From Pseudobythopirellula maris (lineage in GTDB: Bacteria; Planctomycetota; Planctomycetia; Pirellulales; Lacipirellulaceae): a DNA stretch of 64,000 nucleotides. The stretch lies in assembly GCF_007859945.1 (NCBI RefSeq), contig NZ_SJPQ01000001.1, positions 1,426,001 to 1,490,000 of the forward strand. Direction: 5' to 3'. Numbering within the stretch: the first letter of the stretch is position 1; every line of letters begins with the position of its first letter. The translations under genes were made by a program, and so were the position numbers. The notes beneath the pieces are model-generated. The model was not told the origin of the DNA and did no database searches. It saw only the letters and a program-made list of their open reading frames with translations. This document shows, in pieces, positions 8,717-63,171 of the stretch.

Positions 8717-10627
8717 ATGAAACACGGTGGTATCAAGAACCTGTTGCTCGCCCACGTCGAGAAGGCGTTGATCCTCGTCATCGCGCTCGTTGCGGGATGG
8801 CTCGCTTACTCTTCGCTGGGAGTCCCCTACGAGGAACGCAATCCGAGCGACTTGGGTGGCCAGGCGGAGCAAACCCGCACGTCGATCAACAATTTCAGTT
8901 GGCCAGACGCATTGCAAGACCGAGAGAACGTGCGGATCTTTGAGGGCATCGACGCGAAGGACGCGGCCGAGCCGATCGATGACGAGAAGTACAGGTCCGG
9001 CGGTCTCAACCGCCCGGTGGTCCCCCCCACCGTCGACCGCGAAGACCCGCCGCTGCTCGCCGCGCGCAAGCTCGAGGGCACGGCGATCACCGGCCTGATG
9101 GCTTTCGCCGACGAGGCGACCCGCCAGCGGCGTGAACTCGAAGAGCTGCGGCGGCAGCAACGCAGAGAGGCCGAGCGAGCAGAAGAGAGAAACCGCGACA
9201 ACGAGCAGGACCTGTTCGACGCGGGCCGTGGCGAAGGCGATCGAGAAGACCCCAACCGCCGGCCCGCGCCGCGCCTGCGCGGCCAGAACCAGGGCGTTCC
9301 GGTCGAGGGATTCGAAAAGATCGAAACCGTCTCGTGTGCGGTCGTGCTCGCCCAGGCGCCCTCGCTCGACCAGTATCAAGCGTACAAGGAAACGCTGGAG
9401 AACGCCCGCGGATACAAAGAAGCCGATGACGTGCCCTCTTACGCCGGCTACGAGGTCGAGCGGGCCGAGTACCGCGCGGGAGCCCTTTCCAAATGGCAAA
9501 GGGTGCCGGTCACCGGCGGCTGGGGATCGGTCCGTCAGCCCTACGTCACGCCGCGGACCATCGAGGAGGCAACCAGTTCTTGGATCGAAGGCCAAGAGCC
9601 CTTGGTCGACGGGAATTATGAGGACTTTGCGTTGACCTTCCCGCTCCCCCCGTTGGTGGGGCGCGCCTGGGGCGCCGAGGTCGTGCACAGCGAGATCCCG
9701 CTCGCCTCGGAAACCGAGATGCTGGAAACGGTCGACGAACCTGAAGAGCCCACCGAGAACGAAAACGGGGGGATTTTCAGCCGGCCGAGTGAACGCGGCG
9801 CCCGAGGAGGAATCGACCGCCCGCTCGAAAGAGGAGGCCCCCGCATGTCACAACGTGGTGGTGGGCTGGGTGAGTTCAACGGTGGCGGAGAGAGAGGCGG
9901 CAGAAGCACGCGCCGTAGCCGGACTTCCTCCGAAGGTTTCTCGACGAGCATCCCCAATTTGATGGTCCGCTTCTTTGACTTCACGGTCGAGCCGGGCAAG
10001 CAATACCGCTACCGCATCCGGTTGATCCTCAACGATGTGAACCAAGGCGTCTCTAAGAAGTACCTCTCTCCACAGGTCCTTCAGCGTCTGGCGGGCCAGA
10101 AGCCTGGCGCGCATCAGGTTGTGTTTACCGAGTACAGCGAGCCCAGCCCGGTGATCTCCGTGCCGATGGCGGGCGACGCCTACGTGGTTAGCGCCAAGCT
10201 CCCCTCGTCCAAGCAAGTCAACGCCGAGCCGAGCGTCAACATGCTCGTGCAGAGCTTCTCGATCGACGAGGAAGGCAAGGCCTTCAAAGCCGAGCTCGAG
10301 GCCGAGTTCAACCGCGGTGACGTGATGAACATGACCGAAGACGCCGAGGTGCTCACGAGCGACGGCCGCTTCATCGTGAAGAAGGACTCGTTCCCCTTCC
10401 GAACCGGGTCGACCCTGATCGACGTCGACGGCGGGGAGGAGATCGTCCGCAACGTGATCGACGCCCCGGTCCGCGTGCTGCTGATGGATCCGGCGGGCAG
10501 GCTCTACTTGCGCGACGAGATGACCGACTCGCAAGAGGTCGAGAACCACCGCGCGATCTTCGATGGCGAAGAACAAGACGGCGGCCGCGACTTCGAGAGC
10601 ATGGGACGCGACATGCGTGAGTTCTAG
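8717..10627 (+). CDS. Large single-anchor membrane protein of the pilus operon (PilP position)
   Basis: A 636-residue protein with an N-terminal membrane segment (ALILVIALVAGWLAY, about 15-29). A strongly charged helix follows at about 134-168 (ELEELRRQQRREAERAEERN). Next is a conserved-looking domain at about 200-310, then an Arg/Gly-rich linker (about 350-405). The C-terminal beta-rich domain begins FDFTVEPGKQYRYRIRL and ends near residue 620. I do not recognise the family from motifs. Its place between the PilO-like gene and the secretin suggests a link between the inner-membrane platform and the secretin, as PilP does, but it is about four times longer than PilP. ATG 8717 is preceded by GAAGG 10 bases upstream. 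Confidence 0.6.
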   Translation: MKHGGIKNLLLAHVEKALILVIALVAGWLAYSSLGVPYEERNPSDLGGQAEQTRTSINNFSWPDALQDRENVRIFEGIDAKDAAEPIDDEKYRSGGLNRPVVPPTVDREDPPLLAARKLEGTAITGLMAFADEATRQRRELEELRRQQRREAERAEERNRDNEQDLFDAGRGEGDREDPNRRPAPRLRGQNQGVPVEGFEKIETVSCAVVLAQAPSLDQYQAYKETLENARGYKEADDVPSYAGYEVERAEYRAGALSKWQRVPVTGGWGSVRQPYVTPRTIEEATSSWIEGQEPLVDGNYEDFALTFPLPPLVGRAWGAEVVHSEIPLASETEMLETVDEPEEPTENENGGIFSRPSERGARGGIDRPLERGGPRMSQRGGGLGEFNGGGERGGRSTRRSRTSSEGFSTSIPNLMVRFFDFTVEPGKQYRYRIRLILNDVNQGVSKKYLSPQVLQRLAGQKPGAHQVVFTEYSEPSPVISVPMAGDAYVVSAKLPSSKQVNAEPSVNMLVQSFSIDEEGKAFKAELEAEFNRGDVMNMTEDAEVLTSDGRFIVKKDSFPFRTGSTLIDVDGGEEIVRNVIDAPVRVLLMDPAGRLYLRDEMTDSQEVENHRAIFDGEEQDGGRDFESMGRDMREF

Positions 10628-11066
10628 TGCGTATCGCACGGATGCGTAGCGTGTGTGGCGGTGTGATTCGACGTCGATATGGCGAAAGCAACGCTACGGC
10701 TAGCGGTAGTGCGATCTAAACGCAACGCGCACGTGCTAGCGGCGATCGCCGCGACAATGCGCCCGGAGGGTGATCCCCATCGGTTTCTTAAAACCTCGTG
10801 GGATTGATCTTGACGCCCTTGGCCCCTCCCCGTAATTAGCTATCCGCTCGTCGGCCCGACCCGACGGAGCCGCCCCGCGCGGCCCCGTCACGCCGACAGC
10901 ACCGATGGCGAGACGTTGAAAGACGCCACGCCCTAAAACGGGACTGAGATAGTAATTACCGACGCCTCCCCACGAGGGATGGCGCCAGTCAGCGCGTCGC
11001 GTTCATGGATGAAGGCGACGCCGGCGGTCCGCACACGACCGAACCAACGCAACAAGGAGAGTTGAG
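10628..11066. other. Leader/intergenic region before the secretin gene
   Basis: A 439-base stretch without a coding frame of note. It contains an imperfect hairpin pairing 10847-10854 with 10861-10869, and a structured-looking segment at about 10887-10966 with a GAAA, a CCCTAAAACGGG stretch and a TTACCG end that partly resembles a c-di-GMP-I riboswitch. It also has a 7-bp stem (about 10996-11024, GCGTCGC paired with GCGACGC) just before the secretin. The ribosome binding site AAGGAGA lies at 11054-11060. Confidence 0.45.
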
Positions 11067-48176: not shown

Positions 48177-50561
48177 ATGCCCGCCCCTTCGAAAGACTCG
48201 AAGCAGCCGCTCGACCAGCGATTCTTCGTTTTCATGCTGCTGTCGATGTCGATCCTGCTGTTCTTCAACGGGTTCATGGCGCCCCCGGTGGACCCCGCCG
48301 ACGAGCAGGCCGCTCAGCAAGAAGCGGAGGACGCGGGCCTCGACCTCGCCGCCAAGCCCGCCGCACCAGTCGCTGCCGCCGACGCCGACGCCGACGGCCC
48401 CTCCGAAGCCGCGCCGATTGGCGACGATCCCACGGCCGAGCCGGAACTCTTCACGCTTGGCTCTGTGGCGCCCGAGGCCGAGTACCGGCTGCTGACGACG
48501 ATCGACAATATCGGCGCCGCCGTGAGGCGGGTCGCGATCGCGTCACCCGAGTACCAAGACCTCGACGACCGCAGCGGCTTCCTGGGGCACCTCGAACTGT
48601 CCGACAGCCCCACCGGCGGGGCGTTGGTAGGCGTCGTGGAGCCCGGCTCGCCCGCCGAGGAGGCGGGTCTCGCTCCGGGTGATGTGATCACATCGGCCGG
48701 CGTGAAGAAGCAAGAAGACACGCCCGACGCCGCCTCGCTCCACGCGTTGCTCGACGGGACCGAGCCGCGGGAGACGATCAATCTGATTGGCGCACGCGCC
48801 GATGGCGAGGCGTTTACGACCACCGCCACCCTGCGCCGGCAACCGCTTTGCGTTCTCCGTCCCGAAGCGGAAAACATCGCCTTGCACGGCGAGGCGCCCC
48901 CCGGCGGTGTGGTCTCGGAGCCTTCGTACGTGTTGCGGCTGAAGTCGGTCGGCGGTCGGACCACAGCCGACCCGGTGGTCGTCGCGGCGAACGCCAAGTT
49001 GACCGGCGAGCCGTGGACGCAAGTCGAAGACGACGAAGCGCAGGCCGACGACGCCCAAGTGGTCGCGTTTCGCAAGCGGCTGCCCGAGTTGGGGATCGAG
49101 ATTGTCAAACGCTTCACGATGAGTGAAGTCCCCGCCGAGCACCTCGACGACAAGGCCTACCCCGGATTCCATTTCGACCTGGGGGTCGAGGTTCGCAACC
49201 TCGGGGCCGAATCGACCGAGGTTTCCTACGAGTTGACCGGCCCGAACGGCCTGCCGATCGAGGGTTGGTGGTACTCGATGAAGATCGGCCGCGGCTGGGG
49301 CGGCTACGGCATGCGCGACGTGCTGGTGCGTTACGCCGGCGGTCGCTACACGCAGATCGCCTGCAAGACCGTGGCGGACGGCAAGGCGGAGCCGATGGGC
49401 CAGGGAGCGCCGCTGGCGTACATCGGCGTCGACTCGCAGTACTTCGCCTCGGTGTTGATGCCGCAGAAAGAGTCGCTGGGCAACGTGTGGATGAACGCCG
49501 CCCGGGCGGAGCTGGCCACGCCCGAACTCGACGACAAGGCCCAGAAGACTTGGAACAATCCCACCGTGGTGCTCGAGCGCAAGCCGCTGCTCCTGAGCCC
49601 CGCCGGCGCCGAGGGCTTCACCCACACCGACGGCTACCGCGTGTTCGCCGGTCCCAAGCTGCCCGACCTGCTGGCCGCCTACCACGCCTCGGGCGACGAT
49701 CAGCACGGCCTCGACGGCATGCTGTACTACGGTTGGTTCGGCCCGGTGGCGTGGGTGATGCTCGGCATCCTGCACGGGTTCTACGCGATCGTCGGCAACT
49801 ACGGTGTAGCGATCATTCTGCTGACCGTGCTCGTGCGGGCCTCGATGTACCCGATCAGCCGCAAGCAAGCGCAGAGCATGGTCAAGATGCAGGCGCTCAA
49901 GCCCGAGATGGACCGCATCGCCGAGAAGTACAAGAACGACATGGAGAAGCGTTCTCGCGCCCAGCAAGACCTTTTCCGCAAACACAAGGTGAACCCGGCC
50001 GCCGGTTGCCTCCCGCTTTTCTTGCAGTTGCCCGTGTTCGCCGGTTTGTACCGGGCGCTAGGGGTCGATGTCGAGCTGCGGCAGGCGCCGCTGTTCAGCG
50101 AATCGATCCGGTTCTGCTCGAACCTGGCGGCGCCCGACATGGCGTTCGACTGGTCGGGCTTCATGCCCGACTGGGTGAACAACGGCCAAGGGATGTTCGG
50201 CCTGGGGCCGTACTTCAACGTGCTGCCGATCGTGGCGGTCTGTCTGTTCCTCGTGCAGCAGAAGCTGTTCATGCCCGAGGCGACCACCGAGCAGGCCCGC
50301 ATGCAGCAAAGCATGATGAAGTACATGATGCTTTTCATGGGCTTCCTGTTCTTCAAGTGGCCGAGCGGATTGGCGATCTACCTGATCACGTCCACGCTGT
50401 GGGGCATCACCGAACGCAAGCTGCTTCCCAAGCCGACGATCGCCGACGCGCCGGCGATCACCGCCTCGGCGGCCAAGCCTTCGAAACCGGCGCCCAAGGC
50501 TTCGTCCAATGGCGCCTCGAAAGCGACCGCCAAGCGCAACAAAAAGAAACGCAAGCGCTGA
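48177..50561 (+). CDS. yidC: Membrane protein insertase YidC with an embedded PDZ domain
   Basis: YidC inserts proteins into the inner membrane. The 794-residue product has an N-terminal helix (FFVFMLLSMSILLFFNGFM, about 16-34) and a large periplasmic region. The conserved five-helix core runs from about 520 to 750 and includes the hydrophilic groove Arg in LLTVLVRASMYPISRKQ and the cytoplasmic loop with AGCLPLFLQLPVFAGLYRAL. It ends in a Lys-rich tail. Residues about 134-221 form a PDZ-like domain (GALVGVVEPGSPAEEAGLAP and GDVITSAG) placed inside the periplasmic region, which E. coli YidC lacks. Length is about 240 above E. coli YidC. It is followed by a repeat element rather than the usual neighbours jag and mnmE. 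Confidence 0.93.
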   Translation: MPAPSKDSKQPLDQRFFVFMLLSMSILLFFNGFMAPPVDPADEQAAQQEAEDAGLDLAAKPAAPVAAADADADGPSEAAPIGDDPTAEPELFTLGSVAPEAEYRLLTTIDNIGAAVRRVAIASPEYQDLDDRSGFLGHLELSDSPTGGALVGVVEPGSPAEEAGLAPGDVITSAGVKKQEDTPDAASLHALLDGTEPRETINLIGARADGEAFTTTATLRRQPLCVLRPEAENIALHGEAPPGGVVSEPSYVLRLKSVGGRTTADPVVVAANAKLTGEPWTQVEDDEAQADDAQVVAFRKRLPELGIEIVKRFTMSEVPAEHLDDKAYPGFHFDLGVEVRNLGAESTEVSYELTGPNGLPIEGWWYSMKIGRGWGGYGMRDVLVRYAGGRYTQIACKTVADGKAEPMGQGAPLAYIGVDSQYFASVLMPQKESLGNVWMNAARAELATPELDDKAQKTWNNPTVVLERKPLLLSPAGAEGFTHTDGYRVFAGPKLPDLLAAYHASGDDQHGLDGMLYYGWFGPVAWVMLGILHGFYAIVGNYGVAIILLTVLVRASMYPISRKQAQSMVKMQALKPEMDRIAEKYKNDMEKRSRAQQDLFRKHKVNPAAGCLPLFLQLPVFAGLYRALGVDVELRQAPLFSESIRFCSNLAAPDMAFDWSGFMPDWVNNGQGMFGLGPYFNVLPIVAVCLFLVQQKLFMPEATTEQARMQQSMMKYMMLFMGFLFFKWPSGLAIYLITSTLWGITERKLLPKPTIADAPAITASAAKPSKPAPKASSNGASKATAKRNKKKRKR

Positions 50562-50602
50562 GTGGGCAGAACCATGGAGTTCACGGACGGGCGTGATTGA
50601 GG

Positions 50603-50795
50603 ATAGCCACGAAAAGGCACTAGAGCGGTATTCGAATTGGTGTGGACGAGCGGGGAAGCGATTGGGGGCGTGGCGAGGAAGCCGAAGCAGGCAATGCGGT
50701 GCATTGTCGATGCAGGCTGACGAAGCCATGACGCCGATCGCGAGCCGAGCGTCTACACCTATGAGCAAACCGCTCTAGTGCCTTTTCGTGGCTAT
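50603..50795. mobile_element. Short non-autonomous element with terminal inverted repeats, copy 1
   Basis: A 193-base element. A perfect 27-base terminal inverted repeat (50603-50629 with 50769-50795) flanks a core that is nearly identical to 56963-57119. Inside, GGTGTGGACG and CGTCTACACC are also inverted, so the whole unit can fold into one long hairpin. It encodes no transposase. It looks like a MITE or large REP-type unit. The stop codon of the gene at 50792-51937 lies in its right end. Confidence 0.8.
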
Positions 50796-51937
50796 GATTG
50801 CGTCTGCTCACGGACCGCGGTCGACGACTGATCGTAGCGGAACTCGCTCTCCTGCACGGCGTCGCAGATAGCCCGCAAGGCGGGCGGCAGCCTGAGGTCG
50901 TCGGCGCCGACGAAGCTCCCGTCAGCCGTTCGGCCGAACGCCAAGAATCGGCAGCCGACGCTATCGATCTCGGCGATCGCACGATCGCGGCCCTCCTTGC
51001 CATCAGTGTAGAAGCGAGGTTGGGCGATCCGCTCGAGCGTGTCGGCGCCCACGAGCAGCACGGCGCCTGGCGTCAGGCGGGCCTTCTCGACAAACGTGGG
51101 GGCGTTGGTCAGCAGCATTGGGGCGTCGACGAGTGCGACCCGCTTTTCCAACTCGAGAAAATCGAGCGGCGGCTTCTCGGCGTTCGTGACCGAGAGTTCG
51201 TACAGCGGCGCCGCGCCGAGCCGCCGCCGGGCGAGGTCGGCCATGCCACGATGTCCCTGGTGGGGCGGGTTGAACGACCCGGGGAACAGCGCCGCTGGTT
51301 TCTTGCAGCTGGCGCCGATCGTCACGCAATCGCTTCGTCCCGAGATCAGGTCGCCCCAATCGGGGTGCTCACCGCTGCGTTCGACCTTCACCTCGACGCC
51401 CGGGGGGGTCTTCGCGATATCGATCGCCGCCAAGCCTACCGCATCGGCCAGCAGGGCGACGATGGCGTGCGAAGCGACCGCTTCCTCCTCGTCGCGGTTG
51501 CGGGCGCCCTTCTCCAAGTCGAGCCGCATCGCGACGGTTTGCTTGAGAGTCTGCACAGCAATGCAAACCCGGTGCTCGCCCCGTTTCGGTCGGCCCGTGG
51601 TCAGGCTCGCTGTGGCGCCAAGGCCGAACAAGTGCTCCGTAGCGTCCTCCGTTAATGCGATCGCCCGCTGCAGCGAGCGCATCGCCATCGCGCGGGCCGT
51701 GGTGTCGTTCGACGCCTGGGGGGGAGCCGCGCCGAGCCATTCGGCGAGCGAGCGCTCGGCGTAGGGCACGACGGCCTCGATCACGGTGGCCGAAGCCCCC
51801 GGAACGGCGAGCAGCCTGCCTAGAGCCGTCGCCCCGCCGCCGGTCACCGAGAGCACCCCGCACCAAGGCGAGGCGTGCAGCCGTTCGATCGCGGACCTTT
51901 GTAGGTCGGCGGCGTGCTGTGGGGCAGGTTCGCTCAT
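50792..51937 (-). CDS. CinA/PncC-like domain fused to an NMN/NaMN adenylyltransferase domain
   Basis: A 381-residue protein; the start at 51937 replaces a longer frame that crosses the intergenic region. Residues about 15-165 resemble the CinA C-terminal (PncC, NMN deamidase) domain: LSVTGGG aligns with ESCTGG, followed by LLAVPGASATVIEAVVPYAE. Residues about 195-381 form a nucleotidyltransferase: LFPGSFNPPHQGHRGMADLA carries the HxGH nucleotide motif, and SSTAVRE near the end matches the ISSTxIR motif of NadD/NMNAT. Both activities would act on successive steps of NAD salvage. The Glu of ESCTGG is replaced by Leu, so deamidase activity needs testing. The final residues and the TAG stop come from the adjacent repeat element. 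Confidence 0.78.
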   Translation of the reverse strand: MSEPAPQHAADLQRSAIERLHASPWCGVLSVTGGGATALGRLLAVPGASATVIEAVVPYAERSLAEWLGAAPPQASNDTTARAMAMRSLQRAIALTEDATEHLFGLGATASLTTGRPKRGEHRVCIAVQTLKQTVAMRLDLEKGARNRDEEEAVASHAIVALLADAVGLAAIDIAKTPPGVEVKVERSGEHPDWGDLISGRSDCVTIGASCKKPAALFPGSFNPPHQGHRGMADLARRRLGAAPLYELSVTNAEKPPLDFLELEKRVALVDAPMLLTNAPTFVEKARLTPGAVLLVGADTLERIAQPRFYTDGKEGRDRAIAEIDSVGCRFLAFGRTADGSFVGADDLRLPPALRAICDAVQESEFRYDQSSTAVREQTQS

Positions 51938-52217
51938 GGCATTAGTAGTAAGAGAGGGAGCTGTTTCGGCAGCACGATCTTTCTCGGCTGCTCCCAACGA
52001 GACTATTGCCGGGCGGCTACTCACGCCACCCTTCGCGCCTGGTGTTGTGCTGGCGCAACACGTGGCGATTCCGCCACAGGCGTGTTGCGTGGGGGCCGTC
52101 GCGTGGCGCAGGTTGTGCGGCCTCGGCGGGCGGATATGGCTTGTCACGGCCCTCGGCATGGGGGTTGCTCCTTGTGGCTACCACCAAGCCCGCCGCCCAC
52201 CCCGACGATCCGACCCT

Positions 52218-53339
52218 ATGGCCGATGTCCTCGAAATCAACGACATCAACGAGCTTAGCTCCTATCAGCTGGCGTGGAACTCGATGCTGAGCGAGACGCC
52301 TCGCGCCTCGTTCCTGCACACACTCGATTGGCTCCAGACCTACTGGAGGCATTTCGGCGAGGGCCAGAAGCTGCGGGCGCTCGTTGTCCGCTCCCAAGGT
52401 TCGCCGATCAGTATCGTGCCGCTGTGTGTGCGTACCGAGCGACGCCGCTACGGCGACGTGCGGGTGCTGACCTACCCGCTCGACAACTGGGGCTTGTGGT
52501 ACGGCCCTATCGGACGCTGCCAAGCGGCGGCTCTGACGATGGCGATGCGGCACATCGCCCGAACGCCGCGTGACTGGGATCAATTCGAGCCCCGCTGGAT
52601 GGCGCACGACACCACCGACCGCGGCCGCACCGAACGGGCGATGCGGGGCGCCGGCTTGCCCGCCGAAACGACGCCCTACCAAGCGAGCTCGGTCATCGAC
52701 ATGACCCAATTCGACGGTTGGGAGTCGTACCTCCAGTCACGCACATCCAAGACCCGTCACGAGTTGCGTCGTATCCCGCGCCGGCTGGCGAAGATCGGCG
52801 AGGTGGAGGTCACGCACCACCGCCCCGAGCCATTCGCCCACGGCGACGGCGACCCCGCTTGGTCGCTCTACAACGAGTGCGAGAGGGTGTCGGCCGCCAG
52901 TTGGCAGGCTTCCAAGAACGCCGGCAACACGCTGGCCGACGAGCGTTACCGCGGCTTCTATCGCGACACGCACGCCGCGGCCGCTCGGCTCGGCATGGTC
53001 GACATGAACGTGCTGAGGATCGACGGCGAACCGCTCGCCTACCTTTACAACTACAGCTGCCAAGGCCGCGTGTTTGGCCTAAGAATGGGCTACCGTCAAG
53101 ACGCCCCCAGCGGCGTGGGGATCGGGCTGATGGCGGCGGCGCTGCAGGAGAGCTTTGCCCGCGGCGACGTGGCTTACGACCTCGGCATCGGCGGCGAGGC
53201 CTTCAAGCGGCGGATGCGAACCCACGTAGAAACCAACTACCGGATCACCCACACACCGCTGACGGGATGGAAACCGCAGCTGCTGCGCGCCGCCCGGTGG
53301 TGGCGAGGCCGCCGGCAAATCGCGACAAAGAGCGCCTAG
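52218..53339 (+). CDS. CelD/BcsL-like GNAT acetyltransferase
   Basis: A 373-residue protein of the acetyltransferase-6 (CelD-like) GNAT type. It has an N-terminal half (SFLHTLDWLQTYWRHFGEGQ and LRALVVRSQGSPISIVPLCV) and a second half with the GNAT core (MVDMNVLRIDGEPLAYLYNY and VFGLRMGYRQDAPSGVGIGL, where Gly-x-Gly lies in the CoA site). It ends YDLGIGGEAFKRRM, typical of this family. Members often act in polysaccharide modification; the substrate here is not known. ATG 52218 is chosen; the upstream in-frame extension overlaps the 5' end of the divergent NAD-salvage gene. Confidence 0.85.
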   Translation: MADVLEINDINELSSYQLAWNSMLSETPRASFLHTLDWLQTYWRHFGEGQKLRALVVRSQGSPISIVPLCVRTERRRYGDVRVLTYPLDNWGLWYGPIGRCQAAALTMAMRHIARTPRDWDQFEPRWMAHDTTDRGRTERAMRGAGLPAETTPYQASSVIDMTQFDGWESYLQSRTSKTRHELRRIPRRLAKIGEVEVTHHRPEPFAHGDGDPAWSLYNECERVSAASWQASKNAGNTLADERYRGFYRDTHAAAARLGMVDMNVLRIDGEPLAYLYNYSCQGRVFGLRMGYRQDAPSGVGIGLMAAALQESFARGDVAYDLGIGGEAFKRRMRTHVETNYRITHTPLTGWKPQLLRAARWWRGRRQIATKSA

Positions 53340-53372
53340 CGGCTGTGCACAAGCAGCCCGCGTGGCGCTCGA

Positions 53373-53609
53373 TCAGCGTCCCTGATGGTCGCTAGCTATC
53401 GCCTCGGACTGTTCCTTCAAGGCCGCCGCTTCTTTGGCGAGCTTGAACTCGGGGCCCGGGGCGTAGTACTGCACGTCGTCCGTCAGGTAGTACGGGCTCG
53501 GGAGCGTTTGGCCGGCGTAGTCGACCTGGCAGCCGGTAAGCCCCAGGCAAGCGGCCGAGAGTCCCAGAGCCGCCAAGGCGGTGCGAAGCGTTTGCGTCTG
53601 TTTGTCCAT
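53373..53609 (-). CDS. Small lipoprotein
   Basis: A 78-residue lipoprotein. The start at 53609 is decided by the lipoprotein signal that follows: a charged N-terminus, hydrophobic ALAALGLSAACLGLTGC with lipobox LTGC, and GGAGA upstream. The mature part (about 52 residues) contains QTLPSPYYLTDDVQYYAPGP and a short charged helix. The longer open frame upstream is spurious. It is convergent with the acetyltransferase gene, 33 bases away. Function unknown; similar Tyr/Pro-bearing small lipoproteins occur in planctomycetes as surface-associated proteins (inference). Confidence 0.72.
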   Translation of the reverse strand: MDKQTQTLRTALAALGLSAACLGLTGCQVDYAGQTLPSPYYLTDDVQYYAPGPEFKLAKEAAALKEQSEAIASDHQGR

Positions 53610-53932
53610 GCCGAACTTCTCCGTGAGGCGTGCTGTCGCGCCGTGAACGAATCTTGTGGCCGAATGCGCCGTGCGACCTGGGAAGGCGGCAGGGCCGTGG
53701 CTGGCCATTGGTTTGAACGTCATAATCGTCATCGGCGGCGTGACCAGCAGACTTTGACAATTCGTCAAGAAACCCGGAACAGGCCGAACGCCCGAGGACA
53801 GCCGGGCAAAGCGGGTAGACTGCGGCGTGAAAATTAGCCCCGTTGACCCCGAACGGCTAAGATCGAATTGAAGGCGCCGCTGGCGCCGCACGGCGTGCCG
53901 AACACTCTCCACCTGCCGACCGTAAGCCCCGC

Positions 53933-56900
53933 ATGCCACCAAGCCGCTCCCCAAGTTCGTTGATCCAACGCGTCCTGCTAGCAGCGATGCTGCTGGGGCT
54001 CTCGCCCGCTCTGGCCCGCGCCCAAGGGAGATCGTCGGTCCCGCCGCCGGCGCACCAGGCGGCGATCGAGCAGCTCTACCGAGGCGATTATTCGCGCGCG
54101 GAGCGGGCCTTCAACAACCTGCTCCGTGGGGGGATCAAGACGGTCCAGGCGCGCTGGATCGATTCGATTTGCTACCACGCGATGCTCGGCGAAACCTACT
54201 ACTTGGCCGGGGACAACCCCTCGGCCATGCGACAGTTCGACCTCGCGCTCGAGCTGTACCTGGCGAACCGCACCTGGCTGACAACGATCGAGTTCCGCCA
54301 GGACCCACGCCCCGATCAGAGCGGCCCGACCCACATCGCCCCATGGGGAGCCTCGACACGCCGGCCGGTGGCCAGCCGCATCACGGGCGGTTTCCTGGCC
54401 TCGATCGGGCGGATCGACAACAACACCCAAGCCCAGCAAGGCGGCGTCGTTCAAGCGGCCCAGTTTTGGCCGATCGATGCGGTCGAGGTCGTCCGCACGA
54501 CCGCTTGGGCCGTCCGCCGACGGGCCCAGCTTCTCGGGCCGCTCGCCGCCCACGACCCGCTTCACAAGGACGTGCTCGAATCGTACTCACGCGGGGGCGT
54601 TGGCCCACGCGGCCACTGGTCGCAGGCTTGGGTCGAGCTCCAATGGGGCGTCGCGCTGGCGGGCTCTGGCCGCGACGACGACGCCCTGCCCCACCTGCAA
54701 CGGGCCGTGCTCCTGGGCGGCAAGTTCGACCACGCGCTGACGGGGCTCGCCCTGCTGGCTCAGGGCGAGATCGTGATGGCGAAGGGAGACCACGCCGCGG
54801 CCGCCGCCCTGCTGGGCGAGGCGAGCATCGCGGCCTACGCCTACGACGACGTGTCGGTGATCGACGAGGCGTTGCGTCTGGGTTACGTCAACCACCGCTT
54901 GTCGGGCGGCGGCGGGCCGTTCCCGCCGCTCGAAGAGGCCGGCATGTGGGCCGAGCGGCAGCAGCTCGATCACGTCGCCGCCCGCGCCCGAGTTTGCCGT
55001 GCGGACGAACTGCTGGCCATCCGCGACCTCGGCGTCGCCACGAAGACACTCGGCCGGGTTGGCACGGGCCGCAACGACATCGCCGGCAGCCCGCTCGGCG
55101 CCCAAGCCGCCCGACTGCGGGCGATGGGCCGATTCCTCACGGGTGACACCGACGGCGGCTACGCCCTGCTCGCCGACACGCTCGACGCCCAAAGACGTTT
55201 CTCGTCGCGCAACCTGCAAATCGCGCTGACGACCCAACGGTTCGACACCGGCGGGCTGTCGCCGCGGGTGGCGTCGCTCGTTTACCCCGAGTTGCTGGCC
55301 GACCCCACTCCCGACGAGTGGGGCGCCGACCCGCTCGATGCGATCGCCGTGCTCACCACCGATCACCGCGGCGCCCTCGACCGAGCGATCGCCACGGCGA
55401 TCGGGCGTCGCAAGATCGACGAAGCGATCGAGCTGGTCGAGCTCGCCAAACGACGCCGCTTCTTCCGGTCGCTGCCGCTTGGCGGGCGTGGCGCCGCCGT
55501 CAGACGAACGCTCGGCGCCCCGCCCGAGCGGCTCACCTCGGACGAGCGGCTCGAGCGCCAAGGGATGCGTCTCGGTCACCCCGAGCTGGCCGAAGCCTCG
55601 ACTTCGATCCGCGAGCTGGCCGAGGGTCTGCGGGACGAAAAAACATTGTTCACCGCCGATGGGCTGGAGAGCGACCTGCTCAAACGCATCAAGCAGCTTG
55701 GCGCGGCGGTCGAGCGTCGCGAGTCGCTGCTGCCTGTCGCCGCCCTGGCGAGGGAACAATCGACACTCGGATTCCCTCCGCATGCGCCGCTTGAAGTGCT
55801 CCGCGAACGGCTCGCCGACGGCCAAGTCGCCGTTGTCTACCACGCGTTGGGCGACGAGTACTACGGCTTCTTGCTCTCAAAAGACGACGAGCACGCTTGG
55901 CGTGTGGGCACGGGAGCGGAACTCAGTCCCGAGCTGAGCGACCTGCTCGAGGCGATCGCCGGTGGTGGGCAGCAGAAGACATGGACCTACGAAGAACTCG
56001 GCAGCGACGCTTGGCTTGAACCGGCGGAGCGCCTCTCCCAACGGTTGCTGGAGGGATCGCGTCTCGATTTCTCGCAAGTCACAAGCCTGGTGGTCGTGCC
56101 CGATGGATTGGTGTGGCACGCACCCTTCGAGCTACTGCCGGTGGCTGATTCGCAAGAGACGCGATTGCTAATTGACGAGACCACGGTTCAATCGGCGCCA
56201 ACACTGGGGCTTTCGTTGTCCGATCCACGGCGCGGTCGGCAGGTGCGTCGCACCGGCGTCGCGACGCGCGGCGTAAGTCGTGAAGACGAAGTCGACGTCG
56301 CCTGGGAAGCGTACGCCGACCGGGCGCCCTCGCCCGAGCCAATCGTGTCGGGCGCGCCCGTCTCGCCAACGCTCTTGGCTTCGCTCGTCGATCAGTTGAT
56401 CGTCGCGATACCGTCGGACCTCATGCCAGGTTCGACCGGCGATTGGCGTCCCCTCCCGCTTGCTCAGAGCAAAGGGGGCGAGCTGGCGGACTGGATCCGC
56501 ATGCCCTTCGGCGGGCCGGAGCGGCTCGTGCTTGGCGGCGTTCACACCGCTGCCCAGAGCATGCTGAAACCCTCACGCCGCCGCGGCCGCTCGGCCAATG
56601 CCGCGACTCGTCCCGGCGACGAGCTGTTCTTTGCAACGTGCGGGCTGATGGCTTCCGGCGCCCGCACGGCGATGCTCACCCGCTGGCCCACCGAGGGAGA
56701 ATTCGACGACGAACTGTCGGCTCAGTTCCTGCTGGGCACGGACCGGCTGCCAGCAGCCGAGGCGTGGCGACGCAGCGTGCTGATCTCGCGAGACGCGCGG
56801 CTCAACCCCAGGTCGGAGCCGCGCATCGATGCGGGCGATGCGGACGAGGAACTCCCCGAGGCCAGGCACCCGTTCTTCTGGGCGGGACGCCTGCTGATCG

Positions 56901-56965
56901 ATGACGGCGGCTTCCTCGACGCTGAAGATGCGGAGACCGAAGCGTCGAAAGCCGAATCGCCTTAG
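53933..56965 (+). CDS. Exported TPR-containing CHAT-like protein lacking the catalytic residues
   Basis: A 1,010-residue protein. The signal peptide (LIQRVLLAAMLLGLSPALAR) is followed by TPR-like helices over about 35-520 (AIEQLYRGDYSRAERAFNNL, WIDSICYHAMLGETYYLAG and more). The C-terminal half from about 610 has the CHAT (caspase-HetF) pattern: GQVAVVYHALGDEYYGFLLS, VTSLVVVPDGLVWHAPFELL, and ASGARTAMLTRWPTEGEFDD, which matches the last helix-strand segment. At the His position (usually HIATHG) it reads LIVAIPSD, and at the Cys position (usually LSACET) it reads LGGVHT. Proteolysis is therefore unlikely. The TAG stop is the first codon inside the repeat element at 56963. Confidence 0.8.
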   Translation: MPPSRSPSSLIQRVLLAAMLLGLSPALARAQGRSSVPPPAHQAAIEQLYRGDYSRAERAFNNLLRGGIKTVQARWIDSICYHAMLGETYYLAGDNPSAMRQFDLALELYLANRTWLTTIEFRQDPRPDQSGPTHIAPWGASTRRPVASRITGGFLASIGRIDNNTQAQQGGVVQAAQFWPIDAVEVVRTTAWAVRRRAQLLGPLAAHDPLHKDVLESYSRGGVGPRGHWSQAWVELQWGVALAGSGRDDDALPHLQRAVLLGGKFDHALTGLALLAQGEIVMAKGDHAAAAALLGEASIAAYAYDDVSVIDEALRLGYVNHRLSGGGGPFPPLEEAGMWAERQQLDHVAARARVCRADELLAIRDLGVATKTLGRVGTGRNDIAGSPLGAQAARLRAMGRFLTGDTDGGYALLADTLDAQRRFSSRNLQIALTTQRFDTGGLSPRVASLVYPELLADPTPDEWGADPLDAIAVLTTDHRGALDRAIATAIGRRKIDEAIELVELAKRRRFFRSLPLGGRGAAVRRTLGAPPERLTSDERLERQGMRLGHPELAEASTSIRELAEGLRDEKTLFTADGLESDLLKRIKQLGAAVERRESLLPVAALAREQSTLGFPPHAPLEVLRERLADGQVAVVYHALGDEYYGFLLSKDDEHAWRVGTGAELSPELSDLLEAIAGGGQQKTWTYEELGSDAWLEPAERLSQRLLEGSRLDFSQVTSLVVVPDGLVWHAPFELLPVADSQETRLLIDETTVQSAPTLGLSLSDPRRGRQVRRTGVATRGVSREDEVDVAWEAYADRAPSPEPIVSGAPVSPTLLASLVDQLIVAIPSDLMPGSTGDWRPLPLAQSKGGELADWIRMPFGGPERLVLGGVHTAAQSMLKPSRRRGRSANAATRPGDELFFATCGLMASGARTAMLTRWPTEGEFDDELSAQFLLGTDRLPAAEAWRRSVLISRDARLNPRSEPRIDAGDADEELPEARHPFFWAGRLLIDDGGFLDAEDAETEASKAESP

Positions 56966-57119
56966 AGCGTTTTTCGAATTGGTGTGGACGAGGGGGGAAG
57001 CGATTGGCGGCGTGGCGAGGAAGCCGAAGCAGGCAATGCGGTGCATTGTCGATGCAGGCTGACGAAGCCATGACGCCGATCGCGAGCCGAGCGTCTACAC
57101 CTATGAGCAAACCGCTCTA
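56963..57119. mobile_element. Short non-autonomous element, copy 2
   Basis: A 157-base element. Its core is nearly identical to 50621-50777. The ends are TAGAGCG and the inverse CGCTCTA, but the outer 19 bases of the terminal repeat of copy 1 are missing. It lies between two convergent genes and provides the TAG stop codon of both: 56963-56965 for the CHAT-like gene and 57117-57119 for the endonuclease gene. Confidence 0.82.
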
Positions 57120-58916
57120 GCCACGCCCGCGTCGGCCCGCCAGCACGCCGAGAACGGCCACCGCCAGCAAAGCGGCGGCGGGCTCGGGGACCGTTTGGCT
57201 TAGACCGGTCTCGATCGTCGCACCGAAGTTGTTGACCCAGTCGTCGTACTGCTCGGGCGAGTAAGTCACGCCGAGCCCGTCTCGCCACACGGTGAAGTCG
57301 GCGGCGTCGACTGTGCCGTTGCCGTTGAAGTCGCCCGCCAAGCCCCCGACCACCTCGCCCACGAGTTGGAGCGTCAAGCTTTGCTGCTGCTCGCCGGGCA
57401 GGTCCTCATCGCTGAGCGACAAAGTGTATTCGGCCGAAAACTCGCCTAGCGTGTCGGTGAGCAGCGAGGCGCTGAAAGAACTCGCCGAGCCGTGTGATAG
57501 GCCGGTGAACGCAGCCAAGTCGGTATCGAAAGCGAGCGTGTCGCCCACGCCCAGGACCGAATCGAAATCGAGGTCCGCCGCGAACCCGGGGCCGCCCGCG
57601 CCCATGAAATTCACAAGGTCAAACATCTCCAGAAGCGGGGTCGAGCCGAACGAGACTTCGCCAAAGTCGATCGTCAGCTCTTCGATCAGATCACTGGAAT
57701 CGAACGACGCGACGGCGTGCTCCAGGACCGTGAAGCCGACGTCGATCACGTCGTCGCCATCCTGAGCGCCACGGCCGGCACCGGCGCCGGTGGTGATGTC
57801 GAGGTTGTCGATGGTCACCTCGCCGGCGTAGTGTCCAGCGACGGCGGTCGAAACGTCGAGGCCGACCTCGATCGAACGCGAGCCGGAGCCCCCCAAGCCG
57901 AAGGCATTGAGCCGCCCGCTGACCGAGCTCGTCGCGTCTCCCGACGTGGCGACTTCATAGTACACGCCGTCGTCGCCCGACTTGTTGAGCGTCACGCTCT
58001 GTGTGCCGGGCCCCGCACCGCCAACGAATGCCCGGCCGAGGTCGACATCGAGCGAGGTGGCCCCGGCCCCGCCGCTTACTCCGCCAGCGATCGCTAGTTG
58101 ACTGTCATTCGTTTGGTTGATGATCGCCGCCCACACCCATTCGGGGTGGTCGATGAACGGGTTGCGGTTGTGCTGGTAGTCGTCGTAGATGACTTGATTG
58201 CGGCGCCGTTCGAATTCATCGGGAACCGCCTCGTAGTGCCACTCGATGAGCCTCGAGAGCCTGCCGAGTGTGGTTCCACCGGTCCCGGGCGTGTTGTTGA
58301 CGAGGGAGAGGTCCGTGGTGCTCGAACCATCGCCTGGGCCGCCCTCGTAGCGGGTGTCCATGTAAAACATCTGCCGGGCGACCATGCCGGCGTCCTCGTC
58401 GCCCGGGTACCAGACCGTGCCGCCGTCCGACAGCGGGCCGTACCCCTGCTCACCATACTCGCCGCCGAAGTTCAGGTTGCCGCGCTGCGAGTTGATGTTG
58501 TTGCGCGAGGGCCGCAGGTTGTGCAGGTCGCTGTTGTCCGCGCCAGAAGAGCCAACCCCCAAGCTTCGTGGCCAAGTGTGCTCACGGTTCCAACTCACGC
58601 CGCTGTCCCACCCCGGGATGCCGCCGTTCGGATTGATCGCCGACACGTCGAGCGACTCGCGGTTGTAAATCAGGATCATGCGGTCCGGGTCGTTGGGATC
58701 GACGTCGGTGACCTGCAAGATCGATCGCGCGTCGTTGTAAGAGCGCACCGTGTGGCCATCAATCAGGTCGTTGAGCTCCGACTTGAGAGTGGCGCCATTG
58801 AGCGACAAGCCGTCGTAGTAGTTGCCGGGGGCGTACGGATCGGCTTGTAAGCCGGTGGCTAGCCCGACGAGCAACACGACAAGAGCAAGAAAACTTGGCC
58901 GTTGAGCAAATATCAT
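57117..58916 (-). CDS. Extracellular endonuclease I with dockerin-like module and PEP-CTERM tail
   Basis: A 599-residue secreted nuclease. A signal peptide ends near GLQADPY. The endonuclease I domain (about 30-265) has the catalytic motif WNREHTWPRSLG, then SDLHNLRPSRNNINSQRGN, as in EndA-type non-specific nucleases that use a metal-bound His/Asn pair. A beta-rich region with anchor-like repeats follows (about 280-520). A dockerin-like EF-loop comes next (GDFNGNGTVDAADFTVWRDG), and the chain ends in a PEP-CTERM signal (VPEPAAALLAVAVLGVLAGR). It is probably tethered by exosortase sorting and used to degrade external DNA. The TAG stop is provided by the element at 56963-57119. Confidence 0.9.
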   Translation of the reverse strand: MIFAQRPSFLALVVLLVGLATGLQADPYAPGNYYDGLSLNGATLKSELNDLIDGHTVRSYNDARSILQVTDVDPNDPDRMILIYNRESLDVSAINPNGGIPGWDSGVSWNREHTWPRSLGVGSSGADNSDLHNLRPSRNNINSQRGNLNFGGEYGEQGYGPLSDGGTVWYPGDEDAGMVARQMFYMDTRYEGGPGDGSSTTDLSLVNNTPGTGGTTLGRLSRLIEWHYEAVPDEFERRRNQVIYDDYQHNRNPFIDHPEWVWAAIINQTNDSQLAIAGGVSGGAGATSLDVDLGRAFVGGAGPGTQSVTLNKSGDDGVYYEVATSGDATSSVSGRLNAFGLGGSGSRSIEVGLDVSTAVAGHYAGEVTIDNLDITTGAGAGRGAQDGDDVIDVGFTVLEHAVASFDSSDLIEELTIDFGEVSFGSTPLLEMFDLVNFMGAGGPGFAADLDFDSVLGVGDTLAFDTDLAAFTGLSHGSASSFSASLLTDTLGEFSAEYTLSLSDEDLPGEQQQSLTLQLVGEVVGGLAGDFNGNGTVDAADFTVWRDGLGVTYSPEQYDDWVNNFGATIETGLSQTVPEPAAALLAVAVLGVLAGRRGRG

Positions 58917-59135
58917 GGGCGTGCCGCGAGGCGTTGCGGCGAGACTGAGGGGGATAGCAAGGCGGGAGCGTTGGGGAGAGAACTACCAATCTAGCCAGTC
59001 ATCGCCGACGTTGCGAGCGAATGGCCGCTACAGGCGTGTTGCCAGCCCGCGGGCCTGAGGCTCTGATGAAGGCTCAGCCGTTTCGCCGCGGGCACGCGAA
59101 TCCCCCTGTGAATCAAGTACTCAGGACCCCTGCCG

Positions 59136-59966
59136 ATGAAGATCGTTCGATTCCTCGACCCCCAGGGCGCGGTTCAGTACGGTCTGCGGGAACCCGATGG
59201 CGGGGTAACCCTGGCCGAGGGTGACCCATACTCCGGTCTGCGCGACACACGGCAATCCGCGGAAGTCGCTTCGCCGCTGCCGCCGATCGCGCCGGCAGCG
59301 ATTCTGTGCATCGGTCTGAACTACGCCAAACACGCCGAAGAAACCGGCGCCAAGCGGCCAGAGTTTCCGGTCGTGTTCATGAAGACCCCCTCCGCCGCCA
59401 CCGCGACGGGAGCCCCAATCGAGCTGCCGCGCCGGCTCCGCAGCAACGAGGTCGATTATGAGGCGGAGCTGGCGGTGGTGATCGGCAAGCCGTGCAAGAA
59501 CGCCTCGCGTGACAACGCGCTCGACTACGTGCTCGGCTACACCTGCGGCAACGACGTGTCGGCCCGCGACTGGCAGAAGCGAGGCGGCGGCGGGCAGTGG
59601 TGCCGCGGCAAGACGTTCGACACGTTCGCCCCACTCGGTCCGTGGATCGTGACGACCGACGAGATCCCCAACCCGAACAACCTGAGCATCGCCTCCCGAC
59701 TCAACGGCGAGACGGTGCAAGACGCGCACACGTCAGACATGATCTTCGATGTGCCGACGCTCATCGAGTTTCTCTCGGCCAGCGTCACCCTGGCGCCGGG
59801 CACGGTGATCCTAACGGGCACCCCCTCGGGTGTTGGCATGGCCCGCGACCCACAGCTGTGGCTCAAGCCCTCAGACGAGATCGTGGTAGAGATCGAGCGG
59901 ATCGGCCGTCTCTCGAACCCGGTAGTCGAGGAGCGAGCGGAGCAGCTCGACCACCGCGACCTTTGA
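59136..59966 (+). CDS. Fumarylacetoacetate hydrolase (FAH) family protein
   Basis: A 276-residue FAH-fold enzyme. It has the conserved ILCIGLNYAKHAEETG (about 56-71), the metal-ligand segment VDYEAELAVVIGKP (two Glu), GYTCGNDVSARDWQ (Asp ligand), and LAPGTVILTGTPSGVG near 225-240. Family members cleave C-C bonds or decarboxylate acylpyruvates such as oxaloacetate. The specific substrate is not readable. ATG 59136 has a short spacer to the first strand and no strong ribosome binding site. Confidence 0.92.
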   Translation: MKIVRFLDPQGAVQYGLREPDGGVTLAEGDPYSGLRDTRQSAEVASPLPPIAPAAILCIGLNYAKHAEETGAKRPEFPVVFMKTPSAATATGAPIELPRRLRSNEVDYEAELAVVIGKPCKNASRDNALDYVLGYTCGNDVSARDWQKRGGGGQWCRGKTFDTFAPLGPWIVTTDEIPNPNNLSIASRLNGETVQDAHTSDMIFDVPTLIEFLSASVTLAPGTVILTGTPSGVGMARDPQLWLKPSDEIVVEIERIGRLSNPVVEERAEQLDHRDL

Positions 59967-60054
59967 GCTGCTAGGGGACTTTCGCCGAGGCTTGCGTGAT
60001 GGTGAGCAGGCTCGCAACGCACCACACCGCATTCCGTGCTCTGCGTCAGAGCTT

Positions 60055-60068
60055 AGAAAAACGCTCTA
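60055..60068 (-). repeat. Decayed end of the stop-codon element
   Basis: On the minus strand, 14 bases (TTAGAGCGTTTTTC) are identical to the left end of element copy 2 (56962-56975). The next bases fold as a small hairpin (60038-60043 with 60047-60052) and contain GGAATGCGGTG, but the rest of the core is not recognisable. The TAG of this end is the stop codon of the phosphoesterase gene at 60066. Confidence 0.5.
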
Positions 60069-61211
60069 ACTCGACTTGGGAGATCGCAGAGTCAGCAACG
60101 TCAGCTCGGGCGGGCAGTTCCACCGCACAGGGAACAAGCCGCCCGTGCCACGGCTCACATGCATCACCGTCCGCCCGCGACGGAAAGTGCCACTGGCGTA
60201 GCGCACGCCGTGGCGGCTGGGGCAGAGCACGGCGCCGATGAGCGGGAAGCGGATCTGACCGCCGTGGCAATGACCGGCCAGCACGAGGTCCACCCCGCTA
60301 TCCGCCGCCTCGTGGAAGCGGTCGGGCGTGTGGACCAGACCGATCGTGAAGCCGGGATCGGTGGGCAAGCTGGGCCCTTGGCCAAACCAAGGCCGCTCGT
60401 CGCCGAAGAGGGTCACCGCGGCGTGCGCGCCTCCAGCGCCTCGGAGCGACACCTCGATGGTCTTGTCCGCCAGGCAGAAGAAGCCGCGTTGGTCGAGCTC
60501 CGCCCGCAGCCGATCGTGGTCCATCTTTTTGTCGTGGTTGCCAAGCAAGTAGTACCGGCCTTGCGGCGCCACGAGCCCCTGGAGCACCGCAACCGTTTCA
60601 TCGATCCGTGGCGTGTGCTCGACAAGGTCTCCCGTGAGCACCACCACGTCGGGCGCCCAGGCGTTGGTCGCCTCGACGATGTGGCGATAGTACTCGACTG
60701 TCACGCGGCCCGAAGCGTGCAGGTCGGTCAGGTGGGCGATCTTCAGCCCGTCGAGCTCGGCCGGCAGCCGCTCCAACTCAAACTCGAGTTCCTCGATCTG
60801 GGGGCGGAGGATTTCGTTGCCCGGGATCGCAGCGAGCCGCCTCGGCAGGCCCTTGGCAACGGCCTCGGGGCCGAGCGTTTCACGCAGATCAAGTTCGCGC
60901 ACGTCGCGGCGCACCTTTGGCATCTTGAGTCGGTCGACGGCGTTGACCATCGCGTGCCTGAGCAAGGCCCACAGGGCCATGAGAACACAAAAGGTGGTGT
61001 AGATCGCCAACGCGTCTCCGCGGTAGCGGGTTTCTCCCACGATGCCGCGCCAAACCGCCAGCGGGGGAATCCCCGCCAGTAGGATTCCTGAAAGCAACGT
61101 CAACGCGTCGACCAACCGATGGGGCCATCCGTAAGCGTGGATCCGGTTAACGACCCCAACCCAGATCGCCGTGTGGCCAACCAGAGCGACGAGCAGCAAC
61201 AACCAATCCAT
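60066..61211 (-). CDS. Membrane-associated metallophosphoesterase
   Basis: A 381-residue protein. The start at 61211 is chosen because the upstream open stretch (68 codons) is Ser/Arg-rich and lacks support. There are three membrane helices at about 2-20, 30-48 and 65-85 (LLLLVALVGHTAIWVGVV and the following). The phosphoesterase domain has motifs KIAHLTDLHASG, VVLTGDLVEHTP, YYLLGNHDKK, LVLAGHCHGGQIRFP, in the order of YkuE/UDP-diacylglucosamine-type enzymes. The HCHGG ending is typical. Substrate unknown. Its stop codon TAG lies in the decayed element end. Confidence 0.88.
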   Translation of the reverse strand: MDWLLLLVALVGHTAIWVGVVNRIHAYGWPHRLVDALTLLSGILLAGIPPLAVWRGIVGETRYRGDALAIYTTFCVLMALWALLRHAMVNAVDRLKMPKVRRDVRELDLRETLGPEAVAKGLPRRLAAIPGNEILRPQIEELEFELERLPAELDGLKIAHLTDLHASGRVTVEYYRHIVEATNAWAPDVVVLTGDLVEHTPRIDETVAVLQGLVAPQGRYYLLGNHDKKMDHDRLRAELDQRGFFCLADKTIEVSLRGAGGAHAAVTLFGDERPWFGQGPSLPTDPGFTIGLVHTPDRFHEAADSGVDLVLAGHCHGGQIRFPLIGAVLCPSRHGVRYASGTFRRGRTVMHVSRGTGGLFPVRWNCPPELTLLTLRSPKSS

Positions 61212-61305
61212 GCGCGTCGAGACCGAAGAACAGCAGGGGGCAGAGAACGATTCCCCAAAACGGTAACAGATCGAGCTCGGGCTTGTCAGGCCGAACGACC
61301 GCCGC

Positions 61306-63171
61306 TCAGGCCGTGACCTTCGATCCAACGACCTGTTCCACGGTCTCGATGAGCTGGTCGAGGCGGAATGGCTTGTAGAGCACCGCCTGCAGGCCGGCCT
61401 GGCGAGCTTTGACAATCGAGTGACCCGGATCGTAGCCGAAGCCGGTCATCAGGATCAGCGGCACGTGATTGAGTCGCTCCTTGAGGTTGAGCAGCAACTC
61501 GTAGCCCGACATGTCGGGCAGACGTATGTCGGCGATGATGGCGTCGTACGCCTCGCCGGGGCCGAGGTTGCGGCACATGTACATCGCCTCTTTGCCGTCG
61601 TGGGCCGTCTCCACCACACAGTGGTAACGCTCCAACAGGTCGTGGGCCGCGACACGCACGGCGTCGTCGTCGTCGGCCACCAACAGCCGCTTGCCCGCCA
61701 AGAGCGGACGCTGCTCGACGCGAGCGCTCAGCGGGCGGGCCTCCACGGGCGCCAGGTTCTGGCCGATCTTCTGGATCACCTGCTTGATGTCGCGGGCGTT
61801 GCGTAAGATGCGTTGCAACCGCTCGACCACGTCCGGCTCGTGGCCGATGTAACGCTCCATCACGTTGACGGCGTCGTTGAGGATGTCGTCCACCGGCAGG
61901 GCGACCGCCGAGTGGATCGCCTCGACGCTGGCCGCTGCGGTCGACGCCTTCTCGGCGGCCAGCAGCTCCAGCGTGTTGAGCGCCATCGCCACATCGCGCG
62001 AGAAGATCTCCAGGAACTGTCGATCGCTCTCGGTGAAGCGGCCCGGAGAGGGGCTCTCGACGTTGAACGTGCCGATCACCTGGTCGTGCAACGACAACGG
62101 GACGGTGAGCGAGCTGCGGGCGTCTTGGGCGCCTTCGAGGTAAAGCGGGTCCTCGCTCGTGTCCTCGCACAAATAGCTCTTGCCCGTGGCCGCCACAAAA
62201 CCGGTCACGCCGTTGCCAGACGTCTCGGACCGCAGGGTGCGGCGTTCGGCCTCGGGCTTGATGCCCACGGCCAGCAGCGGGTCGAGCACGCCGGTGTTCT
62301 GGTCCAGCATGCGGATCTCGACCACGTCGAACTGCAGCACGTCCTGCGTGTAGTGCAAGATGTTCGACTTGAGGAGCTCGATCCGCTCCTCGAATCCCAT
62401 GCTGGCCACCTCCTCGGGCGTGAGGTCGGCGAGCTCGATGCCCGCTTGGTGGATCGCCGCAAGCTTCTGCTGTTGCTGCTGCTCATCGGTCACGTCGCGG
62501 AGCGTGACGACTAACTGCTCAGCGGGCGATCCGTCGAAGTTCGGCAGCGGCGCCGCACTCACCATGAAATAGCGGCCCTCTTCGCAGCGGAGCGTCGTGG
62601 TGGCCGGCTTGCCCGTGGCGAGGGCCGTGTGGAATGGGCAGAACTCGGGGCCGAGGATCTCGGGGCCGCCAAGCAACTGATAGAAGTTGACGCCCACAAC
62701 GCCGTCGCGCGTCGTCCAGCCGCAGAGCGTGCCGTTGGCCCACAGCACCCGGTTGTCCGCATCGAGGAGCGCCACCCCGTCGGGCATGCCGCGCAGGATC
62801 TGCTCGTTCTGAATGATGCGTCCCGCTTCGGCCGAGGGGAGCATGAGAGCGGCGTCGGCGTAGACCCCCTGGTAGTCGCCGTTGGCGAGCTTGGCGATCG
62901 CTCGCAGAGGGGAGCTCACCGTATCGACGTCGACCCCGTCGGCGAACCGCTGATTGAGCGCTTGCGATTCGGCGTCGCCACGCGACAGGCAGAGGATCTT
63001 GGGCTTATCACCCTGCGGTGCGGGCGAGGGGCCGGTCTCCGATTGACCTGTCGCAGATTGACCAGACGCGGGGCGATCGGCCGCCCCCTGGCCCTGGGCC
63101 GTCGGCCCACACTCGCCCTCGGGGAGCGAAGCGTCCGGGCCGTCAACATTGGTTGTGTCTTGGTGCGACAC
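61306..63171 (-). CDS. PAS-GAF-receiver signalling protein without a kinase domain
   Basis: About 621 residues. An N-terminal Gln/Ser/Pro-rich linker is followed by a degenerate receiver-like fold (PKILCLSRGDAESQALNQRF), a PAS domain (about 120-230) and a GAF domain (about 270-410, GNGVTGFVAATGKSYLCEDT). A helical linker with no catalytic His comes next, and a C-terminal receiver (LLVADDDDAVRV, IIADIRLPDMSGYEL and VLYKPFRL). No HATPase domain is present, so it must work with a separate kinase. The start is placed at GTG 63171: the promoter at 63262-63290 predicts a transcript start near 63255, exactly at the GTG of the longer frame, so that start cannot be used. Confidence 0.82.
   Translation of the reverse strand: MSHQDTTNVDGPDASLPEGECGPTAQGQGAADRPASGQSATGQSETGPSPAPQGDKPKILCLSRGDAESQALNQRFADGVDVDTVSSPLRAIAKLANGDYQGVYADAALMLPSAEAGRIIQNEQILRGMPDGVALLDADNRVLWANGTLCGWTTRDGVVGVNFYQLLGGPEILGPEFCPFHTALATGKPATTTLRCEEGRYFMVSAAPLPNFDGSPAEQLVVTLRDVTDEQQQQQKLAAIHQAGIELADLTPEEVASMGFEERIELLKSNILHYTQDVLQFDVVEIRMLDQNTGVLDPLLAVGIKPEAERRTLRSETSGNGVTGFVAATGKSYLCEDTSEDPLYLEGAQDARSSLTVPLSLHDQVIGTFNVESPSPGRFTESDRQFLEIFSRDVAMALNTLELLAAEKASTAAASVEAIHSAVALPVDDILNDAVNVMERYIGHEPDVVERLQRILRNARDIKQVIQKIGQNLAPVEARPLSARVEQRPLLAGKRLLVADDDDAVRVAAHDLLERYHCVVETAHDGKEAMYMCRNLGPGEAYDAIIADIRLPDMSGYELLLNLKERLNHVPLILMTGFGYDPGHSIVKARQAGLQAVLYKPFRLDQLIETVEQVVGSKVTA

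Follow-up and report, generated by a model that had tools for sequence, protein, structure and literature searches.

In the genome of Pseudobythopirellula maris, two convergent genes are parted by a short repeat, and the stop codon of each gene lies at one end of that repeat. This arrangement raised the question of how a single insertion could come to provide stop codons to both of its neighbours, and whether either protein was altered by it. The window, meaning the whole stretch of 64,000 nucleotides that was analysed, is C1:1426001-1490000 of a genome of 5.07 Mb in 6 contigs. The focal site contains the following features.

53933 to 56965, + strand: gene for a TPR/CHAT-domain protein (PF12770, 2.7e-11)
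56963 to 56965, + strand: TAG stop codon of the CHAT gene, with TA from the target and G as the first base of the element
56963 to 57119, + strand: 157-bp element (family A), copy 2, TA-GAGCG...CGCTC-TA, an imperfect hairpin along its full length
57117 to 57119, - strand: TAG stop codon of the endonuclease gene, reading CTA on the + strand
57117 to 58916, - strand: gene for an Endonuclease I protein (PF04231, 1e-31)

Both stop codons were found where the preliminary description had placed them: the TAG at the left end of the element closes the open reading frame of the CHAT gene, and the CTA at its right end closes that of the endonuclease gene on the other strand.

The core of the element was matched 85 times in the genome (up to 3 mismatches), and 84 near-full copies were extracted with their flanks from the fetched sequence. 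Identity among the copies listed was 97-100%. The family A element measures 157 bp from TA to TA, has no long coding content, and carries perfect 7-bp ends (TAGAGCG/CGCTCTA) on inverted arms that are otherwise imperfect. The DNA fold of the focal element was a full-length hairpin (-38.7 kcal/mol, z -4.4). Family A shows several of the properties by which bacterial MITEs are recognized: it is short, lacks a transposase gene, is dispersed in many near-identical copies, and has terminal inverted repeats that form a hairpin.

TA was present at both ends of nearly all copies, preceded on the left by a pyrimidine and followed on the right by a purine. When the copies were removed, the restored target was YTAR in 80 of 84 sites, compared with 27% of non-coding TA sites. 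Three family A insertions (C1:42242, C1:1169290, C3:734754) were found at the one TA bounding a different repeat, family B, with one TA left on each side. These nested insertions support TA duplication, and from them and the symmetry of the target we infer that TA is duplicated when the element inserts. It was also seen from the nested insertions at the terminal TA of family B that elements which rebuild YTAR provide new targets in turn.

With one TA kept, the restored empty focal site was CC-TTAG-CC, in the context ...TCG CCT TAG CC.... This site contains the stop of the CHAT gene (TAG) on one strand and the stop of the endonuclease gene on the other, where it is TAA; the endonuclease stop is TAG now. 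The C-terminus of the endonuclease, read directly, was intact and PEP-CTERM-like (VPEPAAALLAVAVLGVLAGRRGRG). The CHAT protein has 25 residues after HPFFWAG, and its relatives have HPFFW[AG]G followed by a variable tail of 26-120 aa, so the focal tail is at the short end of this range, without loss of a conserved part.

These features are very probably those of a non-autonomous MITE that targets YTAR, duplicates TA and leaves the host gene with a TAG stop rebuilt in place and its native C-terminus kept. YTAR corresponds to a TAA or TAG stop together with a preceding pyrimidine, and since the motif is symmetric, it equals the 4-nt overlap of two convergent TAA/TAG stops as well. With inner ends GAGCG...CGCTC, each flank would read Y-TA-G into the element. 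Where the target TA is part of a stop, that stop would become or remain TAG without a shift in position or frame; the TA would come from the host, through target and duplication, and only the G from the element. At the focal site, one insertion would have split an overlapping pair, with each gene keeping its own stop and its native C-terminus.

The preliminary description had counted four flanking genes that use TAG codons borne by the element. Two of the four stand, both at the focal copy. The other two were located at the following features.

50603 to 50620, + strand: left arm of a host palindrome, with copy 1 inserted in the palindrome centre
50621 to 50777, + strand: family A element, copy 1, 97% identical to the copy at 56963-57119
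50778 to 50795, + strand: right arm of the host palindrome, containing the stop of the right-hand gene (50792-50794)
50792 to 52159, - strand: right-hand gene at copy 1, whose C-terminal half is cytidylyltransferase-like, with its stop outside the element
60056 to 60068, - strand: 13-nt exact match to the left end of the element, covering the stop of a metallophosphoesterase gene; an old fragment or chance

The right-hand gene of copy 1 had been described as stopping inside the element; its stop is in fact 15 nt beyond the end of the copy, in the right arm of an 18-nt inverted repeat of the host (ATAGCCACGAAAAGGCAC / GTGCCTTTTCGTGGCTAT) lying on either side of the copy. Copy 1 lies in the exact centre of this perfect 18+18-nt palindrome, and the restored host site is palindromic both with and without TA. 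Motifs similar to CCACGAAAAGGCAC recur at other places in the genome. The phosphoesterase stop (60066-60068) does fall within a match to the element end, as claimed, but a decayed end was not established, because no element similarity extended past the 13 nt. Matches as good as this were rare in the shuffled window (mean 0.04, up to 1 mismatch), but the reversed control of a looser end pattern, YTAGAGCGKTWTK, gave 3 matches across the genome, which is roughly what chance would yield at that scale, so that the match could be due to chance. An orphan end at C2:680007 likewise showed no extension past its terminal bases.

To count stops over the genomic copies, genes were called by a home-made hexamer model in 975 kb of fetched sequence, from which each copy had first been cut out so as to leave a single TA. 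On empty sites restored in this way, which presuppose TA duplication and come from 19-25% of the genome in stretches centred on copies, 19 of the 84 copies lay exactly on the stop codon of a neighbour, 64 were intergenic and 1 was ambiguous. Stops accounted for 131 of 1651 background non-coding YTAR sites (7.9%), giving an odds ratio of 3.4 (P 4e-5). Two copies, the focal one and C1:307602, each lay on the stops of both genes in a convergent pair overlapping by 4 nt. In the unmodified sequence, all 22 coding frames that enter a copy ended on its terminal TAG, and neither of the remaining frames was used (P 3e-11 under an expectation of one in three). The frames entered from the left end in 13 cases and from the right end in 9, showing that either end can serve. 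The tabulation over genomic copies proposed in the preliminary description therefore found enrichment of stops and left the pattern unrefuted; the suggestion that flanking stops are more frequent than chance holds genome-wide.

These counts also bear on the simplest explanation, in which one frame of three happens to be closed by the terminal TAG and genes merely run into it by coincidence. The loss of half of the cited cases at the scale of a single window is what such a coincidence would look like, but the genome-wide enrichment and the restriction to one frame, together with the repeat of the pattern in family B (below), make this explanation scarcely credible.

It had also been suggested that the element may replace original C-termini. 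Such truncation would occur when an element landed near the 3ʹ end of a gene and its TAG made a new stop, with loss of the original C-terminus. In keeping with this, genes do terminate at the TAG that marks the element boundary, and two codons may have been lost at the copy C4:583866, provided that the TA on its right changed to TG. Random truncation is, however, expected to use all three frames, and the entering frames used one in 22 of 22 cases, which indicates insertion into an existing TAG or TAA stop. After removal of the element, the frames still ended at that TA, with one ambiguous exception. Several proteins also fitted their family models to the last residue: residues 1-872 of a polynucleotide kinase-phosphatase covered positions 1-851 of 851, residues 2-114 of a hydroxyisourate hydrolase, ending YRGS, covered positions 2-113 of 113, and the models were reached to 327 of 327 in an ACR3 protein and to 390 of 390 in a DUF1501 protein. 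Because the protein was complete wherever the family model reaches the C-terminus, replacement of C-termini was rejected, and truncation as a general explanation is very improbable.

Rebuilding of a stop in place does not by itself say why stops are enriched, and the preliminary description had left open whether the element targets gene ends or is tolerated there. Insertions per available YTAR site numbered 0.145 at stops, 0.110 at 1-40 nt downstream, about 0.06 at 41-160 nt, and 0.023 where no gene 3ʹ end was adjacent. Among the 80 copies for which a gap was defined, 31 lay in convergent gaps, which contain 179 of 1369 background sites over three gap types (OR 4.2, P 3e-8), leaving 49 copies on 1190 background sites in the other gaps. 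For families A and B pooled, stops exceeded other non-coding sites with an odds ratio of 4.1 (P 1e-8), in a run that counted 17 family A stop copies instead of 19 because two nested copies were dropped as stops. An active preference of the transposition machinery for stop codons, through for example the context of translation end or transcription termination, would add to the effects of YTAR and of 3ʹ ends. Such a preference is hinted at by random reassignment of each copy to a YTAR within its own gap, which predicts 14.1 at stops against the 18 seen (P 0.03), and by the odds ratio of 1.5 for stops over sites 1-40 nt downstream in the pooled families. The latter comparison was, however, not significant for family A (19/131 vs 16/145, P 0.48), for the pooled families (P 0.18) or for convergent gaps alone (P 0.56), and active preference is unlikely. 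Together with the gradient of rates and the convergent excess, the lack of difference between stops and sites just downstream indicates that the enrichment, apart from a possible mild preference for stops, is mostly an effect of 3ʹ ends and convergent gaps. An association with gene ends was thus supported, since rates were highest at stops and 1-40 nt downstream, while the stop itself was indistinguishable from YTAR just downstream of it. We infer that tolerance at gene 3ʹ ends, not active targeting, accounts for the stop enrichment. Copies would persist at gene 3ʹ ends, chiefly between convergent genes, because they do the least harm there.

Family B is a second TA-bounded repeat, unrelated to family A, and one of its copies is in the window.

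10625 to 10718, + strand: family B repeat copy, 94-bp, whose terminal TAG (10625-10627) stops the gene to its left

The core of family B was matched 39 times, and 38 near-full copies were present in the fetched stretches. Its target is YTAR, and its ends are TAGTGCG...CGATCTA or CGCTCTA. Among coding frames entering family B copies, 14 of 16 ended on the terminal TAG, and the insertions lean toward stops (14/165 vs 6/180, P 0.07). The right end CGCTCTA is common to many family B copies and the 157-bp element, and one transposase may therefore move both families.

Sister elements that share the TAGAGCG/CGCTCTA ends and the core of family A were found in Botrimarina colliarenosi, which belongs to the same GTDB family as the genome of the window (Lacipirellulaceae, Pirellulales at NCBI), and in more divergent form in a further relative (G015). 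At L113 (B. colliarenosi) and L110 (G015), open and putatively coding frames reach the terminal TAG from either side and stop on it. The core hairpin was kept across sister elements of different genera (L107, L113, L119 and L110; alignment A1), with stem bases changed yet paired (GCAATGC-GGT-GCATTGT vs GCGAAGC-GGT-GCTTCGT), which is unusual for the interior of a MITE.

Conservation of the hairpin core despite change of the stem sequence is one of three observations that would fit retention of the element between convergent genes for some useful function, such as that of a two-way terminator or a hairpin at the 3ʹ end of mRNA; the others are the full-length hairpin of the focal copy and the strong excess between convergent genes. 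Harmless parasites, however, are expected to be distributed likewise, as has been reported of repeats in pneumococcus and of IS elements (PMC3049150), and half of the copies are outside convergent gaps. We consider a useful role improbable as the reason for the distribution, and retain the reading of a tolerated MITE that rebuilds the stop.

Short repeats of this kind are known from other bacteria. RUP, Correia (NEMIS) and ERIC are MITE-like repeats of 100-200 bp with inverted ends and a terminal TA with target duplication, which give hairpin transcripts, have no coding capacity and occur in many intergenic copies (PMC2229807). RUP is over-represented between convergent genes (PMC3049150). Family A resembles these repeats in size, inverted ends, terminal TA, lack of coding content and many intergenic copies, and differs in its unrelated, GC-rich sequence, its strict YTAR target and its planctomycete host. 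By contrast, REP/REPIN sequences, which are associated with RAYT and have a tetranucleotide-tagged palindrome of 20-40 nt at each end, were rejected as relatives; family A is a single long hairpin whose ends pair together.

Supply of stop codons by mobile sequences has precedents too. In Streptococcus pneumoniae, BOX supplies the stop of 36 annotated genes at their extreme 3ʹ end, with no strong evidence of truncation (PMC3049150); BOX is modular and unrelated in sequence, and the passages cited give no YTAR or TA mechanism for the supplied stop. TnRErm46, a transposon of the IS481 family in Rhodococcus equi, inserts at CTAG, in which TAG is the stop of some target genes that are left uninterrupted (PMC6794481). 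TnRErm46 is autonomous, carries several genes and has a 6-bp NCTAGN repeat, whereas family A is 157 bp, non-coding, and has a 2-bp TA. Rfam gave no match at the gathering threshold in 49000-62000, the exact element core was absent from GTDB 220 contigs, a set from which records of this or very near genomes were possibly left out, and the core pattern was absent from viral contigs. The literature search found these precedents and no description of the family A repeat.

Mobilisation would depend on a transposase acting in trans. To judge by the title of a 1991 report by Tenzen and Ohtsubo, IS630 reportedly prefers the TA in CTAG. The YTAR preference of family A is similar to this, and its putative TA duplication is similar to that of the IS630/Tc1/mariner family, which duplicates TA (PMC2170065). 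A search of the same genome for DDE_3 transposases (IS630-type, PF13358) gave no matches, which is not proof of absence because the assembly is about 96.5% complete, and no autonomous partner with family A ends was seen in this genome.

Transposases of the IS5 family (IS427-like, DUF4096 + DDE_Tnp_1) were present in the genome. An IS5-family element at C2:818.5-819.4 kb (L077) has ends GAG[GC]TTGTCCAATAA adjoining TTA. Its ends start with GAG, as do those of family A, but the apparent duplication is the 3-bp TTA and the inverted repeats diverge after GAG/GAGC. An origin of family A from such elements was not supported by the ends of the one resident IS examined, GAGGTTGTCCAATAA / GAGCTTGTCCAATAA by TTA, compared with GAGCGGTTT by TA in family A.

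More broadly, family A might represent a class of stop-safe MITEs, which duplicate TA and have G (or A) as their first inner base. In this rather doubtful extension of our result, the choice of YTAR and G-initial ends would perhaps be favoured because elements could then enter the safe sites that are densest in GC-rich genomes, including overlapping convergent stops, where pairs are parted with both proteins unchanged. For elements found on stop codons, the results suggest a simple and testable rule: with G beside the duplicated TA, TAG would be rebuilt on both sides, and the YTAR target is itself the motif of a stop codon. For annotation, genes with their end in a repeat of this kind would be read as intact, not truncated. 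In evolution, an insertion of 155 bp may part an overlapping pair of convergent genes and leave both proteins untouched.
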